A DNA stretch of 64,000 nucleotides, taken from an uncultured Acidobacteriia bacterium (lineage in GTDB: Bacteria; Acidobacteriota; Terriglobia; Bryobacterales; Bryobacteraceae). The notes beneath the pieces were generated by a model that was given only the letters and a program-made list of their open reading frames with translations, had not been told where the DNA came from and searched no databases. Location: assembly GCA_903923395.1 (NCBI GenBank), contig CAIXXM010000083.1:62001-126000 (forward strand), read 5' to 3'. Of the stretch, positions 8,366 through 12,939 are shown piece by piece (positions within the stretch are counted from its first letter, which is position 1; each line of letters starts with the position of its first letter). A program made the position numbers and the translations under genes.

Positions 8366-9583
8366 TTAGAGTAGAACCTTGCACCACTGCTTGCCCACCT
8401 GCAAAACCAGTTCCTTCGCCTGCGGGACAATCACTAATTCCAAAACCTTTTCACCGTTGATCTGAATCGCTCCGGCCTTGCGCTTGCGGGAAGCATCGGA
8501 ACCGGATTCCGCCAGCCCGGCCTTGGTGATCAACTTCTCCACATTGATGCCGGCCGGCCCCTGCACGCCTTCCGGCATTGCAATCTCCCGCATATCCGCG
8601 GGTACTTCTTTGTTCTGCACCACGCGGGAAAACTCTTCCTCGGCGCGGCGGGCATCGGCAGCGGAATGGAAATCCGTCACAATGAGACGGCCCAGTTGCT
8701 TCTTCACTTCCATGGGATGCAGCGCACCTTCCGCAACCTGTCTCTGCATGGTGGCAATATCCGCGGCGCTCTTGTCCGTAAGCAGTTCGTAATAGCGGTA
8801 CATCAGGACGTCGCCAGTCTGCATGATCTTGCGGAACATCACCTCAGGCGCTTCCGCGATGCCAATGTAATTCCCGAGCGACTTCGACATCTTCTTGACG
8901 CCGTCCAAACCCTCCAGAATCGGCGTCATCGCCACAATCTGCGGCAGCTGGTCATAGTCCTTCTGGAGTTCCCTGCCCACCAGCAGATTGAACTTCTGGT
9001 CCGTACCGCCCATCTCCACATCGCACTTCAGCGCCACGGAATCATAACCCTGCGCGAGCGGGTACATCAATTCATGCACGGAAATCGGCTCACCGGCAGC
9101 GTAACGCTTCGAGAAATCATCCCGTTCCAGCAGCCTCGCCACTGTATACCGGGAGCAGAGCCGGATGATCTGTTCAAACTGCATCCCCGCGAGCCATTCG
9201 CTGTTGTACCGGACTTCTGTCTTCTCCGGATCCAGGATCTTGAAAACCTGCGCGGTGTAGGTTTCCGTATTGGCAACGATGGCGTCGCGCGTCAAAGGCG
9301 GACGCGTGGCGTTCCGGCCCGTGGGGTCGCCGATCATCGCCGTCGTATCACCGGCCAGGAAGATGACCTGATGGCCGAGGTCCTGGAAGTGCTTCATCTT
9401 GCGGAGCAGCACGGTGTGGCCCAGATGCAGATCGGGCGCGGTGGGGTCAAAGCCCGCCTTCACGCGCAACGGCTTGCCCTGCTTCGCACGGAGAATGATG
9501 CGCTCGCGCAGATCCTCTTCGCGGATCAGCTCGGCCATGCCCTTCTTCAGGTACGTCAGTTGTTCTTCAGGAGTGGAGGTCAC
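8366..9583 (-). CDS. tyrS: Tyrosyl-tRNA synthetase
   Basis: This 405-aa class I synthetase is of the TyrZ-like bacterial subgroup. The HIGH-type signature is HLGH at 53-56 within [12 protein letters not shown], and the class I loop is KMSKS at 231-235. A C-terminal S4 RNA-binding domain (from about residue 340, with [14 protein letters not shown]) contacts the tRNA. The length and both signatures are intact. It is the first gene of the probable tyrS-alaS-ypdA operon. The ~115 nt upstream hold no gene and must carry the promoter, but I cannot assign clear -35/-10 boxes. Confidence 0.96.
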
Positions 9584-9699
9584 CAGAATTTCATTTTAAG
9601 GGTTGAGGTCATGTGGACCCGACTGGGCAACTTGACTTCAACCATTGTGCTCGATGTTTATGCGTCCGGTATGCTCCGCAGAGGATTTTCTTGGCAGTT

Positions 9700-11061
9700 T
9701 CAATCCGTGACAACAGATCTGTAGAGGCGCCTCCGCTGCACTGTCAGCCAGATTAGTTCCAAACTGATAACCAGCATCCCAAATTGTGAGAGAGCATTGG
9801 GCTTTACCAGTTCGGGAATCTTGTTGATTTCGAGATGTTGAAGGGTCTCATCAACAAAGTGCAAACCTCCGAAATCTTGTACTGCCAGATTTACTCTGAT
9901 CGCTGCTGCGTAGCTTGACTGCAACCCGTAGACGATAGTGGCCGCAGCAGCCGGCAAAAGTAGCATTAGAAATGACAGCATTCGAGGTGCGAACGCTACC
10001 CGGCCCGATGAGGGGAATGGCAACATCAAGATACTTGCAAGCCCCTCCGACCCGGCAAGACCAGACGGAATATGCCGTACTTGTGATCTCAATGAATCAA
10101 CGACAGCACCCCACAGCAGATAGGCGGCAGCGACGCCTAATGGAAACAAATTCAACCAAACTCTTAAAGAGAACTCCGGCAGCCATTTTTCGACCTGAAC
10201 GGTTCTCTCGCCCTGCACGTTATGGACGACGGCGGCTAATTCTTCCCGCCGCTTCCTCGCATAGTTCTCGAACTGCTGAACAGTCAGTGAGGAAAGCCGT
10301 CTTGTAGAGCCGCCTTTGTCAATCGCCCGGACGAAGTTCGCATAGGCCAAGTCGTGAACAGCCCGATCTTGGGATTCTGTCTTCTGCTTGGCATAACTCG
10401 ACAAGGTATAGCTGGTTTCAGCGCTACATTGCCACCTTACAGGCTCTTTTCGTATTCTTTCCGCGAGGTCCGTAACGAACATCATAGTTGGAGTGGAGAG
10501 GCTGGCTGTCGCAGCCAATTGTGATAGGCTCGCATCCTTCAATTCCGCTCCAATAAGGCCCAGCTTGCGAGCCCTGTCCAACAGCGGGTCAAAGTCCCAA
10601 GACGCTTCTACGATCGGAGTCCTGATCATCTGTTCCGCCGCATCAATCGCGTTTTGATCCAGTGTTGATTCGACCTCACAAACCGTGGCTGATTCAACGG
10701 CGTTCTGCATGCCGATACGATGGAGAGAAGTTGCGGTGAGTTCAACATCACTCCAGAATGCGTGGAATCTTGCAATCTGCCGGGCTGGTGCCGCATCGCC
10801 GAAAACCGGAGGCTGCAGGATGAAAATGGCCGGCTGGCCAGCTACTCCGACGTTAAACTTCAGATAGTTCTCAACGAATGCCAAGGCAGTTAGTTCCCGG
10901 GAACGCTCTGCCAGATCTAAAGCGGGACCGCCATCTAACAGACCGGCCCTCGTCACTATAGTGCTTCCAGCGGTGAGGACCGATGTCAAGAGGGTGAGGA
11001 GGATGCGCGCCGCGCTCTTCCACGTGTCCTTGAAGCTCTTTTCGGCTCGGCTTTCTGGCAA
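9700..11061 (-). CDS. Membrane protein of unknown function, paired with AAA ATPase
   Basis: This 453-aa protein belongs to no family I recognise. It has one predicted N-terminal transmembrane helix (~18-36), a long soluble region rich in predicted helix (~40-300), and three C-terminal helices (~301-322, 361-383, 427-443), with a Lys/Arg-rich tail. The soluble domain contains a Cys within RWQCSAETSY but no catalytic signature. Codon choice looks less GC-biased than in the neighbouring tyrS. It lies 82 nt downstream of the AAA ATPase gene on the same strand, so the two could be one transcription unit. The ATG at 11061 was used because hydrophobic helix 1 follows it closely. Confidence 0.65.
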   Translation of the reverse strand: MPESRAEKSFKDTWKSAARILLTLLTSVLTAGSTIVTRAGLLDGGPALDLAERSRELTALAFVENYLKFNVGVAGQPAIFILQPPVFGDAAPARQIARFHAFWSDVELTATSLHRIGMQNAVESATVCEVESTLDQNAIDAAEQMIRTPIVEASWDFDPLLDRARKLGLIGAELKDASLSQLAATASLSTPTMMFVTDLAERIRKEPVRWQCSAETSYTLSSYAKQKTESQDRAVHDLAYANFVRAIDKGGSTRRLSSLTVQQFENYARKRREELAAVVHNVQGERTVQVEKWLPEFSLRVWLNLFPLGVAAAYLLWGAVVDSLRSQVRHIPSGLAGSEGLASILMLPFPSSGRVAFAPRMLSFLMLLLPAAAATIVYGLQSSYAAAIRVNLAVQDFGGLHFVDETLQHLEINKIPELVKPNALSQFGMLVISLELIWLTVQRRRLYRSVVTD

Positions 11062-11143
11062 ACTGGAAGCCCTCCTTCACCTGACTGACAAGATGTTGGG
11101 CAGGATAACATAGGCCGTCACCGCTGCACATCATAATCTCGTC

Positions 11144-12334
11144 TCACTCCCGCCAGTCATCCCCCGGCACAATCCGCTTCATAAACTCATTAAAGAGCGG
11201 CACCGTAAACGCCGTATCGCCGTGGCTGGGGCTCCAAATCATGCCCTTGTTAATTAGACTTTGCCGCACCGGACCCTGGGAGGTAACACCTTTGCCCAGC
11301 ACCTTCGCCACGTCGCCAGAACGGTGCGGACCGGGCCCGAGTTCCGCCATCGCGCGGAGATAGTGCTTCTCTTTTACCGTCAAACGGTCAAAACGGACAC
11401 GGAAGAAACTCTCATCGAGCGCTGCCATGACCTCCACTTCAGCGGCAACTACATCATCGGCCGTGATCGGACTGCGTTCCGCCACATTCCAGACGTGCTT
11501 GCCCCATTCCTGCAGGAAGTAGGGATAGCCGCGGGTGGCCTGTATGATCCGGGTCACAGCGGCGGTTTCGAACTCCACACCCTCTTCATGCGCAGGCTTC
11601 ACCAGAGCGAGTTCCACATCCGCTTCATTCAGCGGCCCGATCATTGGATACTCAAACAGCCGTTCCGAGTAGGATTTTGCATCACCCGCGCGGGCCCGCA
11701 ACTGGGGCAATCCGGCACCCACCAGCGTCAGCGGCAGATTCCCTTGCGAACATCGGTGCAGCGCGGAGATCAGCGCCGCAAACTGGTCCGTCTCCAAATA
11801 CTGCAGCTCATCGATGAACAACACCACCGCCGTGGAGGCCTTCCTCGCCGCCAGCCCAACCTCTTCCAGCAGCGCCGCGAGATCACCCTCCAGATCCCCG
11901 TTGTCCGCCAACCCGGCCAGCGGTTCCAAATCCAGGCCGACTTCAATATCGCTGTAGTGGACCTTCAACGCCATCGCAAAACCAGCCAGTGCGCGCAAAC
12001 CCCTCTGCGCCATCTTCTTTGCGGACTCCACCCGGCTGAGCCGCAGCAGAACCTGCCGCAATTGCGGTGCAAGCACAGCCGGCAGCGAACGGTTTTCCGG
12101 CGCCTCAATCCGAACCGCCTGAACCCCCGTGGCCTCAGCATCCTTCCGCATCTGATCCAGCAGCACAGTTTTGCCCACACCGCGCAGACCCACCAGGAGG
12201 ACACTCTTGGCGGCTTTGCAGCGCCGGATGCGCTCAATGGAGATCGCAACATCCTGCCGCAAGCGGTCACGTCCGGCCAATTCCGGAGGTGCGCTGCCTG
12301 CTCCCGGGGCGTAGGGATTGACGAGGGCGTTCAT
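11144..12334 (-). CDS. AAA ATPase of Orc1/Cdc6-like layout with C-terminal winged helix
   Basis: This 396-aa P-loop ATPase has Walker A GLRGVGKT at 49-56, Walker B VVLFIDE at 170-176 and a sensor-1-like segment LTLVGAGLPQLR near 203-214. The C-terminal ~80 residues (from KHYLRAMAELG) look like a winged-helix DNA-binding domain. This AAA plus wHTH layout resembles archaeal Orc1/Cdc6 and bacterial ATP-binding proteins in the AAA_16 group, whose roles are mostly unknown. No transposase or nuclease lies beside it. It heads a unit with the membrane protein at 9700-11061, and its start is preceded by an AT-rich stretch with inverted repeats, suggesting specific regulation. Confidence 0.78.
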   Translation of the reverse strand: MNALVNPYAPGAGSAPPELAGRDRLRQDVAISIERIRRCKAAKSVLLVGLRGVGKTVLLDQMRKDAEATGVQAVRIEAPENRSLPAVLAPQLRQVLLRLSRVESAKKMAQRGLRALAGFAMALKVHYSDIEVGLDLEPLAGLADNGDLEGDLAALLEEVGLAARKASTAVVLFIDELQYLETDQFAALISALHRCSQGNLPLTLVGAGLPQLRARAGDAKSYSERLFEYPMIGPLNEADVELALVKPAHEEGVEFETAAVTRIIQATRGYPYFLQEWGKHVWNVAERSPITADDVVAAEVEVMAALDESFFRVRFDRLTVKEKHYLRAMAELGPGPHRSGDVAKVLGKGVTSQGPVRQSLINKGMIWSPSHGDTAFTVPLFNEFMKRIVPGDDWRE

Positions 12335-12354
12335 AGTTATAAGAATCTTACAGA

Positions 12355-12375
12355 GTTTATCTTGCAGAGATAAAC
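12355..12375. promoter_or_regulatory. Operator-like inverted repeat upstream of the AAA ATPase gene
   Basis: GTTTATCT (12355-12362) and AGATAAAC (12368-12375) form a perfect 8-bp inverted repeat with a 5-nt spacer, 21 nt upstream of the AAA ATPase start. The surrounding 12341-12450 is strikingly AT-rich for this genome. It contains further related half-sites (TATAAAC at 12389-12395, TTTATCTC at 12423-12430) and a second small palindrome GATCT-ATAA-AGATC at 12401-12414. This fits a multi-site operator between divergent genes, possibly bound by the winged helix of the adjacent product. The binding protein is a guess. Confidence 0.5.
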
Positions 12376-12492
12376 CCTCTAAACTCTCTATAAACCAGAT
12401 GATCTATAAAGATCTTAGAAACTTTATCTCACTAGCATAATATCTCTAATTTCCTTATACATCCAGACCCTGCGGCGTGCTATTTTGGCACT

Positions 12493-12939
12493 ATGCGGAA
12501 CCTCCTGCTCGCCCTCTGTCTGCTCTGCGCGCCCCTTCGTGCAGAAGAAGCTGTTGAAATCAAAGCAGTTACCGGCACAGTCCAGAAACTCTTCGATGCC
12601 ATGGCCGCCAAGGACGGTGCCGCGATCAAAGCCCTGGTCCTGCCCGGCACATCCCTTTCCGCCCTGCGCGCGAACGGCCAAACCACAGTCACACCGATCG
12701 AGAAGTTCATCGAAACCATAAGCACTGCGCAGGGGTCTCTGGCCGAGCGCATGTGGGACCCCAAGGTGCTTGTCGAAGGCAACATCGCCACCCTTTGGGC
12801 GCCCTATGACTTCCACAGGGACGGCAAATTCACACACTGCGGGATCGACGTCGTCAACCTGCTGAAAACACCCGAAGGCTGGAAGATCGCCGGACTGAGC
12901 TATACCGTCATCCAACAGGGCTGCCAGGCACCCAAGTAA
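12493..12939 (+). CDS. Secreted NTF2-like (SnoaL/DUF4440-type) protein
   Basis: This 148-aa protein has a Sec signal peptide (LLLALCLLCAPLRA, cleaved near AEE) and a single NTF2-like cone domain. The family features are an N-terminal helix with VQKLFDAMAAKDGAAIKALV, a central WDPKVLVEGNIATLWAPYDF strand pair and a C-terminal GWKIAGLSYTV strand. Two cysteines in the mature protein (in THCGIDV and QQGCQAP) could form a disulfide. Members bind small ligands or act as minor enzymes, and no substrate can be read here. It is 23 nt upstream of the SMP-30-like gene and probably co-transcribed with it. Confidence 0.72.
   Translation: MRNLLLALCLLCAPLRAEEAVEIKAVTGTVQKLFDAMAAKDGAAIKALVLPGTSLSALRANGQTTVTPIEKFIETISTAQGSLAERMWDPKVLVEGNIATLWAPYDFHRDGKFTHCGIDVVNLLKTPEGWKIAGLSYTVIQQGCQAPK

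Follow-up and report, generated by a model that had tools for sequence, protein, structure and literature searches.

A palindrome of six half-sites directly ahead of the start codon accompanies a sporadic Orc/STAND-like ATPase gene

Two genes that lie on the same strand with 82 bases between them encode an AAA+ ATPase and a membrane protein in an uncultured Acidobacteriia bacterium, and the question raised by this locus is whether the two act as a pair or whether the unit is a different one. The DNA analysed here, to which we refer as the window, is a stretch of 64,000 nucleotides (contig CAIXXM010000083.1, positions 62,001 to 126,000) from a genome whose 169 contigs add up to 6.15 Mb. We found that the pair is no module and that the unit is the ATPase gene together with a palindrome (dyad) of six half-sites, which ends just before the start codon and to which the gene is closely tied. 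The reading that we favor, and hold to be fairly probable, is that of a self-contained ATPase gene with its own dyad operator, autoregulated by assembly on a promoter that is usually leaderless. Both open reading frames (ORFs) named in the original prediction were recovered at the positions and lengths given here:

11144 to 12334, minus strand: ATPase gene, 396 amino acids, AAA+ with a C-terminal winged helix (Walker A GLRGVGKT, Walker B LFIDELQY)
12335 to 12461, no strand assigned: the whole AT-rich control region, 29% G+C
12337 to 12394, no strand assigned: proximal dyad, a palindrome of about 58 bp with six half-sites, found with model R1 and nhmmer
12405 to 12460, no strand assigned: second, tandem dyad, found with model R1 and nhmmer, unlike the proximal dyad in sequence and identical to it in geometry
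9700 to 11061, minus strand: orphan membrane-protein gene, 453 amino acids, no relative found and atypical codon usage, outside the ATPase unit

The control region had been described beforehand as unusually AT-rich, and this was borne out: its G+C content compares to a window mean of 58.6%, and outside 12200-12600 no 127-base stretch of the window is as low, making it the lowest apart from the windows that overlap it. The two tandem palindromes in this region have centres 67.5 bases apart, and each is made up of six half-sites, reading TATA-TTA-TTA / TAA-TAA-TATA on the minus strand, with 6-base gaps between the inner sites and an 11-base centre. A dyad model (R1), built from 34 dyads including both from the window, matched the proximal dyad in its own genome with E 3.4e-8 on the minus strand and 3.3e-7 on the plus strand, and the second dyad with E 7.5e-8 and 1.0e-5, respectively; at E<=10 these were the only two matches in the 6.15 Mb. 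The possibility that the dyad marks a regulon was considered and rejected, as no third dyad was present in this genome at that threshold.

Presence of the dyad follows close kinship of the gene. Of 14 genomes tested, all six with a homologue at least 63% identical have one dyad place each, and none of the eight without a close homologue has any. For held-out loci from the phylum, R1 at E<=0.01 detected the dyad in seven of eight at an identity of at least 65%, in two of three at 55-57% and in none of 11 at 52% or less; for plasmid loci, at E<=0.02, it was detected in four of five at 60-72% identity and in none of ten at 41-52%, with the dyad of a Vibrio locus scoring weakly by R1 in this test (E 0.25). 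Using 66 distinct upstream regions from homologues at least 50% identical to the window ATPase, we further found that: (i) a flexible-gap half-site pattern is present in 57, compared to a mean of 3.1 and a maximum of 6 over 30 rounds of shuffling; (ii) the centre spacer is exactly 11 in 38, compared to 0.13 in shuffles, and when the outer sites were scored as well, a scoring that has no control, the centre was 11 in 51 of the 57 and the gaps were 6 and 6 in 37; (iii) a strict 35-base pattern is present in 28 against an expectation of 0.035, and in the 1.2 Mb of loci, where overlaps are counted more than once, all 63 of its occurrences sit upstream of an ATPase gene or a relic of it and (iv) a dyad profile built from 37 of 67 gap-free upstream regions matches 47. 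The arms of the dyad also co-vary. In 27 non-redundant dyads there were 459 complementary cells compared to 407.7 +/- 9.6 with arms permuted between sequences, and none of 2000 permutations, which ignore sequence kinship, reached the observed complementarity.

More distant members often have other palindromes at the same position, eight of 13 of which beat all of 100 shuffles; a palindrome at p<=0.01 was present in 11 of 22 loci, a set that includes near copies of the dyad. In one distant clade (L167-L169 and L171) the middle half-sites of either arm are CTG/CAG-like, and the winged helix is different as well. In two Nitrospinota loci (L050, 4-371; L054, 4619-4988), three tandem dyads about 155 bases apart stand before the ATPase gene; in L054 the stretch behind an upstream dyad opens a 17-codon reading frame.

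Mirrored half-sites some nine bases apart, conserved along with the winged helix, point to probable binding of the dyad by an oligomer of the ATPase itself, and we infer an autoregulated operator from the exclusivity of the dyad, its geometry and the co-variation of its arms. A plausible course of events is that an ATP-bound oligomer would occupy the half-sites with its winged helices, three protomers to each arm, and would cover the outer TATA, in most copies the predicted -10 box of a leaderless promoter. Covering this box would keep expression of the ATPase gene low, until the nucleotide state, a partner or competing DNA broke the assembly and released expression. Our reasoning for a leaderless message in most copies, with the -10 box lying under the operator, is that the end of TATAA lies 6-12 bases ahead of the start codon in 39 of the 46 copies scored and that a Shine-Dalgarno-like motif is present in 3 of the 66 upstream regions. 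A regulated promoter of its own that is free of a ribosome site should work in any host, and this fits the spread of the gene, which is found on plasmids and in an integron-type cassette.

Several observations weigh against this reading. The profile misses 19 of the 66 upstream regions and matches only 12 of the 29 that were not used for training, which indicates that the spacing and sequence of the dyad drift with clade. Loci with distant or decayed homologues in four genomes (G090, G120, G130 and G146) had no dyad when searched with nhmmer. The shift of half-site and winged helix in the distant clade is clade-wide and counts as a single event, and kinship likewise limits what the arm permutations convey. 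Two bases separate the proximal dyad of the window from the ATG, and the 46-copy scoring gives 0 bases to the start codon in the window and four more copies and 2-3 bases in two more; as the dyad abuts the start codon of the window gene, its TATA lies too near for a -10 box from which a full-length leaderless message could start, and the distal dyad may have a part in the expression of this copy. A same-strand ORF begins no more than 100 bases downstream of the ATPase gene in eight of 46 loci. Finally, rampant transfer across phyla, which we had entertained, is unsupported since the ATPase tree tracks phyla rather well, with 13 changes of phylum label compared to a possible minimum of 9 and a shuffled mean of 29.8. 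Descent of the ATPase is largely within phyla, with some crossings, and here it should be kept in mind that binned contigs may be misplaced.

The original prediction spoke of an accessory two-gene system, and with regard to the ATPase the word accessory holds. The gene is sporadic, being present in 11 of 151 genomes of relatives at E<=1e-30 and in 21 of 396 genomes of the phylum at E<=1e-60. Genome contigs gave 69 loci, plasmids 112 of 72,556 records (with 60-80% identity in 10) and phages 1 of 50,697 records, and viral contigs contained no relative. The family spans ten phylum-level groups, and its nearest named relatives are Acidobacteriota. The window copy is intact and aligns with 50 intact homologues at 54-70% identity, in an alignment that omitted the stop-containing loci L037, L063, L062, L076 and L008, ten more loci (L039, L040, L046, L052, L053, L059, L061, L064, L069 and L071) and the partial matches L074, L077 and L080-L082. 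The ratio of nonsynonymous to synonymous substitution was 0.024-0.123 in 11 of 12 close pairs, with the twelfth saturated, and shows that the family is under purifying selection. Decay also occurs: five of 82 aligned loci have an in-frame stop, the gene of G130 is split over two frames, and in G016 the dyad and a truncated, broken gene start are on one contig and a 3' piece is on another. The G016 locus (L141, about 1500-1670) is a relic in which a well-kept dyad stands before the broken start, the control element having outlived its gene. Two genomes, G292 and G454, have two ATPase copies each, 69 and 51% and 55 and 56% identical to that of the window, and one of the G454 copies contains a stop.

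Anti-invader action, plasmid or island maintenance or the remodelling of DNA-bound complexes would be candidate cellular outputs of the ATPase, and defence or selfish maintenance is a plausible job for it. The neighbourhoods of its homologues are varied. No neighbour family holds a constant place across the loci unless these are close relatives of one another; context is common to four Caldilineaceae loci, and one ABC-type cluster is present in 10 loci at varying places. Homologues elsewhere adjoin conjugation, partition, Tn7-like, IS21 or ordinary metabolic genes, and when a Sphingobium context was screened for an empty site, the 30 matches listed included only records with the same insert or with IS21 alone. 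In Rhodococcus opacus (L130, 1-3749) a distant homologue adjoins TnsA-, transposase- and TniB-type genes, an arrangement that draws attention given the TnsC-like fold of the ATPase. In Vibrio sp. HDW18 the ATPase gene and its dyad lie between two attC-like repeats as an integron-type cassette, with the dyad before the gene and, judged by eye, a hairpin with a T-run behind it. The array has 14 copies of the attC-like core in 13 kb, and the features of 551000-599487 include no integrase. The cassette itself (L086, 6001-7176) sits in an array rich in toxin-antitoxin and abortive-infection genes, and this stretch ends at a predicted chloramphenicol-acetyltransferase gene.

We therefore have to consider that the unit is a single-gene anti-phage or anti-plasmid device in which the ATPase is the effector or sensor and the dyad holds it at a safe level, a possibility that we regard as real, if on the doubtful side. 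The company kept by the Vibrio cassette is consistent with it, as are a weak similarity of the ATPase to mad8 of the MADS system, its fold kinship to STAND ATPases and the ORC/Cdc6 ATPases BrxC and BrxD of BREX, as described in one report (PMC12839542). The original prediction had also proposed looking for defence islands around the genes. In a PADLOC scan of 110 of the 112 first-neighbour ORFs of homologues (taken with a mechanical ORF picker, eight near-copy loci omitted), 55 families were matched compared to 39 in 110 control ORFs, where the control is narrow, being limited to the window and the same genus, and where families were counted rather than proteins per system. The 25 of 55 families listed for the homologues' neighbours include SoFic (3 members), type IIG restriction, DrmMI, AriA, AbiEi and DrmD, and the 25 of 39 listed for the control are mostly PD-T4-6 and RtcR-type models with one member each. 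Defence-type models are commoner beside the ATPase than in this same-genus control, a result that is suggestive without settling the matter. Against a defence device are (i) the lack of any domain, other than ATPase and winged helix, that could serve as effector or sensor; (ii) the weakness of PADLOC matches that may reflect a shared P-loop; (iii) the number of families matched by the narrow control itself; (iv) the many neighbours that are housekeeping genes and (v) the absence of the gene from viral contigs and its near absence from phages.

A more specific proposal combines the Orc-like ATPase and the origin-like six-site dyad into a minimal, stand-alone sentinel of one gene: paired three-subunit spirals would sit on the promoter of their own gene, to be released onto foreign replicons by DNA that competes or invades or by a shift in nucleotide state. 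We offer this as a speculation and think it rather unlikely.

It could also be that the palindrome works as an RNA hairpin, an attenuator or an element of mRNA stability, and not as a DNA operator. Co-variation of the arms would fit, and a promoter in the distal dyad of the window would place the proximal one within the transcript. The half-sites, however, are nearly invariant, spaced at about nine bases and separated by degenerate spacers, which is the look of protein sites; moreover, the usual distance from TATAA to the start codon implies a leaderless message that lacks the palindrome, and an Rfam scan of 9500-12700 gave no match. We consider the hairpin improbable. Still less can be said for an origin-like unit, in which the dyad would be the origin or centromere of an ATPase that initiates replication or acts as a partition-type protein. 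In archaea, origin recognition box (ORB) repeats adjoin orc1/cdc6, and the window offers a comparable picture, with repeated half-sites in an extremely AT-rich stretch beside a gene whose product matches the Orc1/Cdc6 fold (1w5t, Z 19.8; 2qby_B, Z 19.1) and with dyads in tandem here and in threes in L050 and L054. Set against this, the unit is a chromosomal single copy with one place per genome and also takes the form of an integron-type cassette, its TIGR02928 score is 19.6 against a cut-off of 181.3, and no helicase or loader gene is constant nearby. An origin is, in our judgement, very improbable.

This leaves the membrane protein, for which the original prediction had found no recognised family. 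There was no Pfam match above cut-off (a single sub-threshold row was EAD8, E 0.032) and nothing in NCBIfam, PADLOC or PHROGs. A search of the 151 relatives' genomes returned only the protein itself, and the 396 phylum genomes gave three further weak rows (E 0.0028, 0.0051 and 0.0065) with 32-34% identity over 69-87 residues, one of which runs through three stops; we judged these to be chance. No relative was found among 30 pattern matches in genome contigs or in the plasmid, phage and viral-contig collections, and tblastn against the 82 ATPase loci hit only its own locus, other rows being at E 1.3 or worse. The protein is an orphan with no convincing relative in any collection searched. It has four hydrophobic 19-residue windows, and its structure, which was to be predicted as a further check, came out of a single-sequence model at a predicted local distance difference test (pLDDT) score of 37, which is useless. 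Its gene was said to be less GC-biased than its neighbours, and indeed it has 53% G+C, with a G+C fraction at third codon positions (GC3) of 0.57 compared to 0.68-0.78 in ten neighbours, and it alone among twelve genes has a negative codon-bias score. As those ten neighbours form the reference set, the fair comparison is between the two genes left out of it, the ATPase gene at 0.153 and the membrane-protein gene at -0.168. The codon usage of the ATPase gene resembles that of its neighbours and that of the membrane-protein gene does not, so the two probably have different histories, the latter probably being an unrelated recent neighbour. The idea of a sensor or defence pair in which the two proteins act together can thus hardly be upheld: the genes are adjacent on one strand, both are accessory and eight of 46 other ATPase loci have the close downstream ORF mentioned above, but recurrence of the two side by side failed in all other ATPase loci among the 82, the membrane-protein gene starts with TTG 9 bases after a good Shine-Dalgarno site of its own (AAGGAGG) where the ATPase gene has none, and in Vibrio the ATPase forms a one-gene cassette.

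As to the rest of the locus, housekeeping genes flank the pair on one side as predicted, namely tyrS and alaS (from the ORF list and Pfam); the names alaS and ypdA for genes near the pair are presumed from the look of the sequence. A gene divergent from that of the ATPase (12493-12939), weakly of SnoaL/lumazine-binding type, begins 33 bases from the distal dyad, and its homologues in G014 and G017 have no dyad of their own. In same-genus genomes compared for an empty site, tyrS and the lumazine-type genes share no context with the window.

The ATPase is annotated merely as an 'ATP-binding protein' and is kept at 54-70% identity between phyla, yet it occurs in a small minority of genomes. The dyad is a first handle on it, as a candidate DNA target and a route to an assay for binding and repression, and it allows members to be found where domain models fail to tell them from other proteins of AAA_16 type. 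Assembly on six half-sites, if real, would link spirals of initiator-type AAA+ proteins to autoregulation and to mobile cargo of a single gene. We found no description of a solitary gene-plus-dyad unit in the open PubMed Central (PMC) literature, a coverage that leaves out subscription papers.

The kind of ATPase, an Orc/STAND-like AAA+ protein with a winged helix, is already known. Its prediction as Orc1/Cdc6-like with a winged helix is upheld by a Pfam AAA_16 match (E 1.1e-15, 58.9 bits against a gathering score of 32.6) and by a structure model (pLDDT 92.3, predicted template modelling score 0.89) showing an Orc/SSO1545-like ATPase followed by a C-terminal winged helix. The closest folds are 2qen (Z 23.3, 321 residues, root-mean-square deviation (rmsd) 4.4) and 2fna (Z 22.8), followed by Orc 1w5t, STAND ATPases, TnsC and MuB; a Foldseek ranking instead placed Orc1/Cdc6 and RuvB at the top, and phmmer against PDB sequences gave no match. 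PADLOC has no specific model over most of the protein, the best match being mad8 (E 1e-6, residues 45-216) and the others weaker and of P-loop type.

The likeness to archaeal SSO1545/PABY2304 (2fna, 2qen) extends over nearly the whole length of the ATPase (2fna_A, rmsd 4.0 over 316 residues), but identity is only 14-16% and the ATPase_2 (PF01637) score of 20.6 bits lies below the cut-off of 33.2. The ATPase and winged-helix core of STAND ATPases (CED-4, plant NLRs and MalT) aligns at Z of about 15-19, but the scores for nSTAND1 (26.8 against 27.1) and NB-ARC (11.2 against 23.5) fall short, and the 396 residues include no sensor repeats or effector domain. TnsC (7mbw, Z 16.8) and MuB (8xvb, Z 14.7) resemble it in fold, and phrog_296, 'DNA transposition protein', matches it at E 3.4e-4, although no transposase is constant beside its homologues. 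BREX BrxC and BrxD are AAA+ ATPases of the ORC/Cdc6 clade, BrxC with a winged helix and BrxD standalone, as PMC12839542 describes them, and we liken the ATPase to them by this description; they belong to large gene clusters, whereas the ATPase family has no constant partner. The cassette form, seen once in Vibrio sp. HDW18 and not in the window copy (other copies are chromosomal or on plasmids), differs to that extent from integron cassettes at large, and resembles toxin-antitoxin-type cassettes with their own promoter in that the ATPase gene runs against most cassettes of its array. With Orc1/Cdc6, finally, the TIGR02928 score denies membership and there is no sign of a replication role, but the order of AAA+ domain and winged helix is shared, the fold of ORC2 (1w5t_A) aligns over 340 residues at an rmsd of 6.1 with 2qby_B close behind in Z, and in both cases dyad-symmetric DNA repeats adjoin the ATPase gene.

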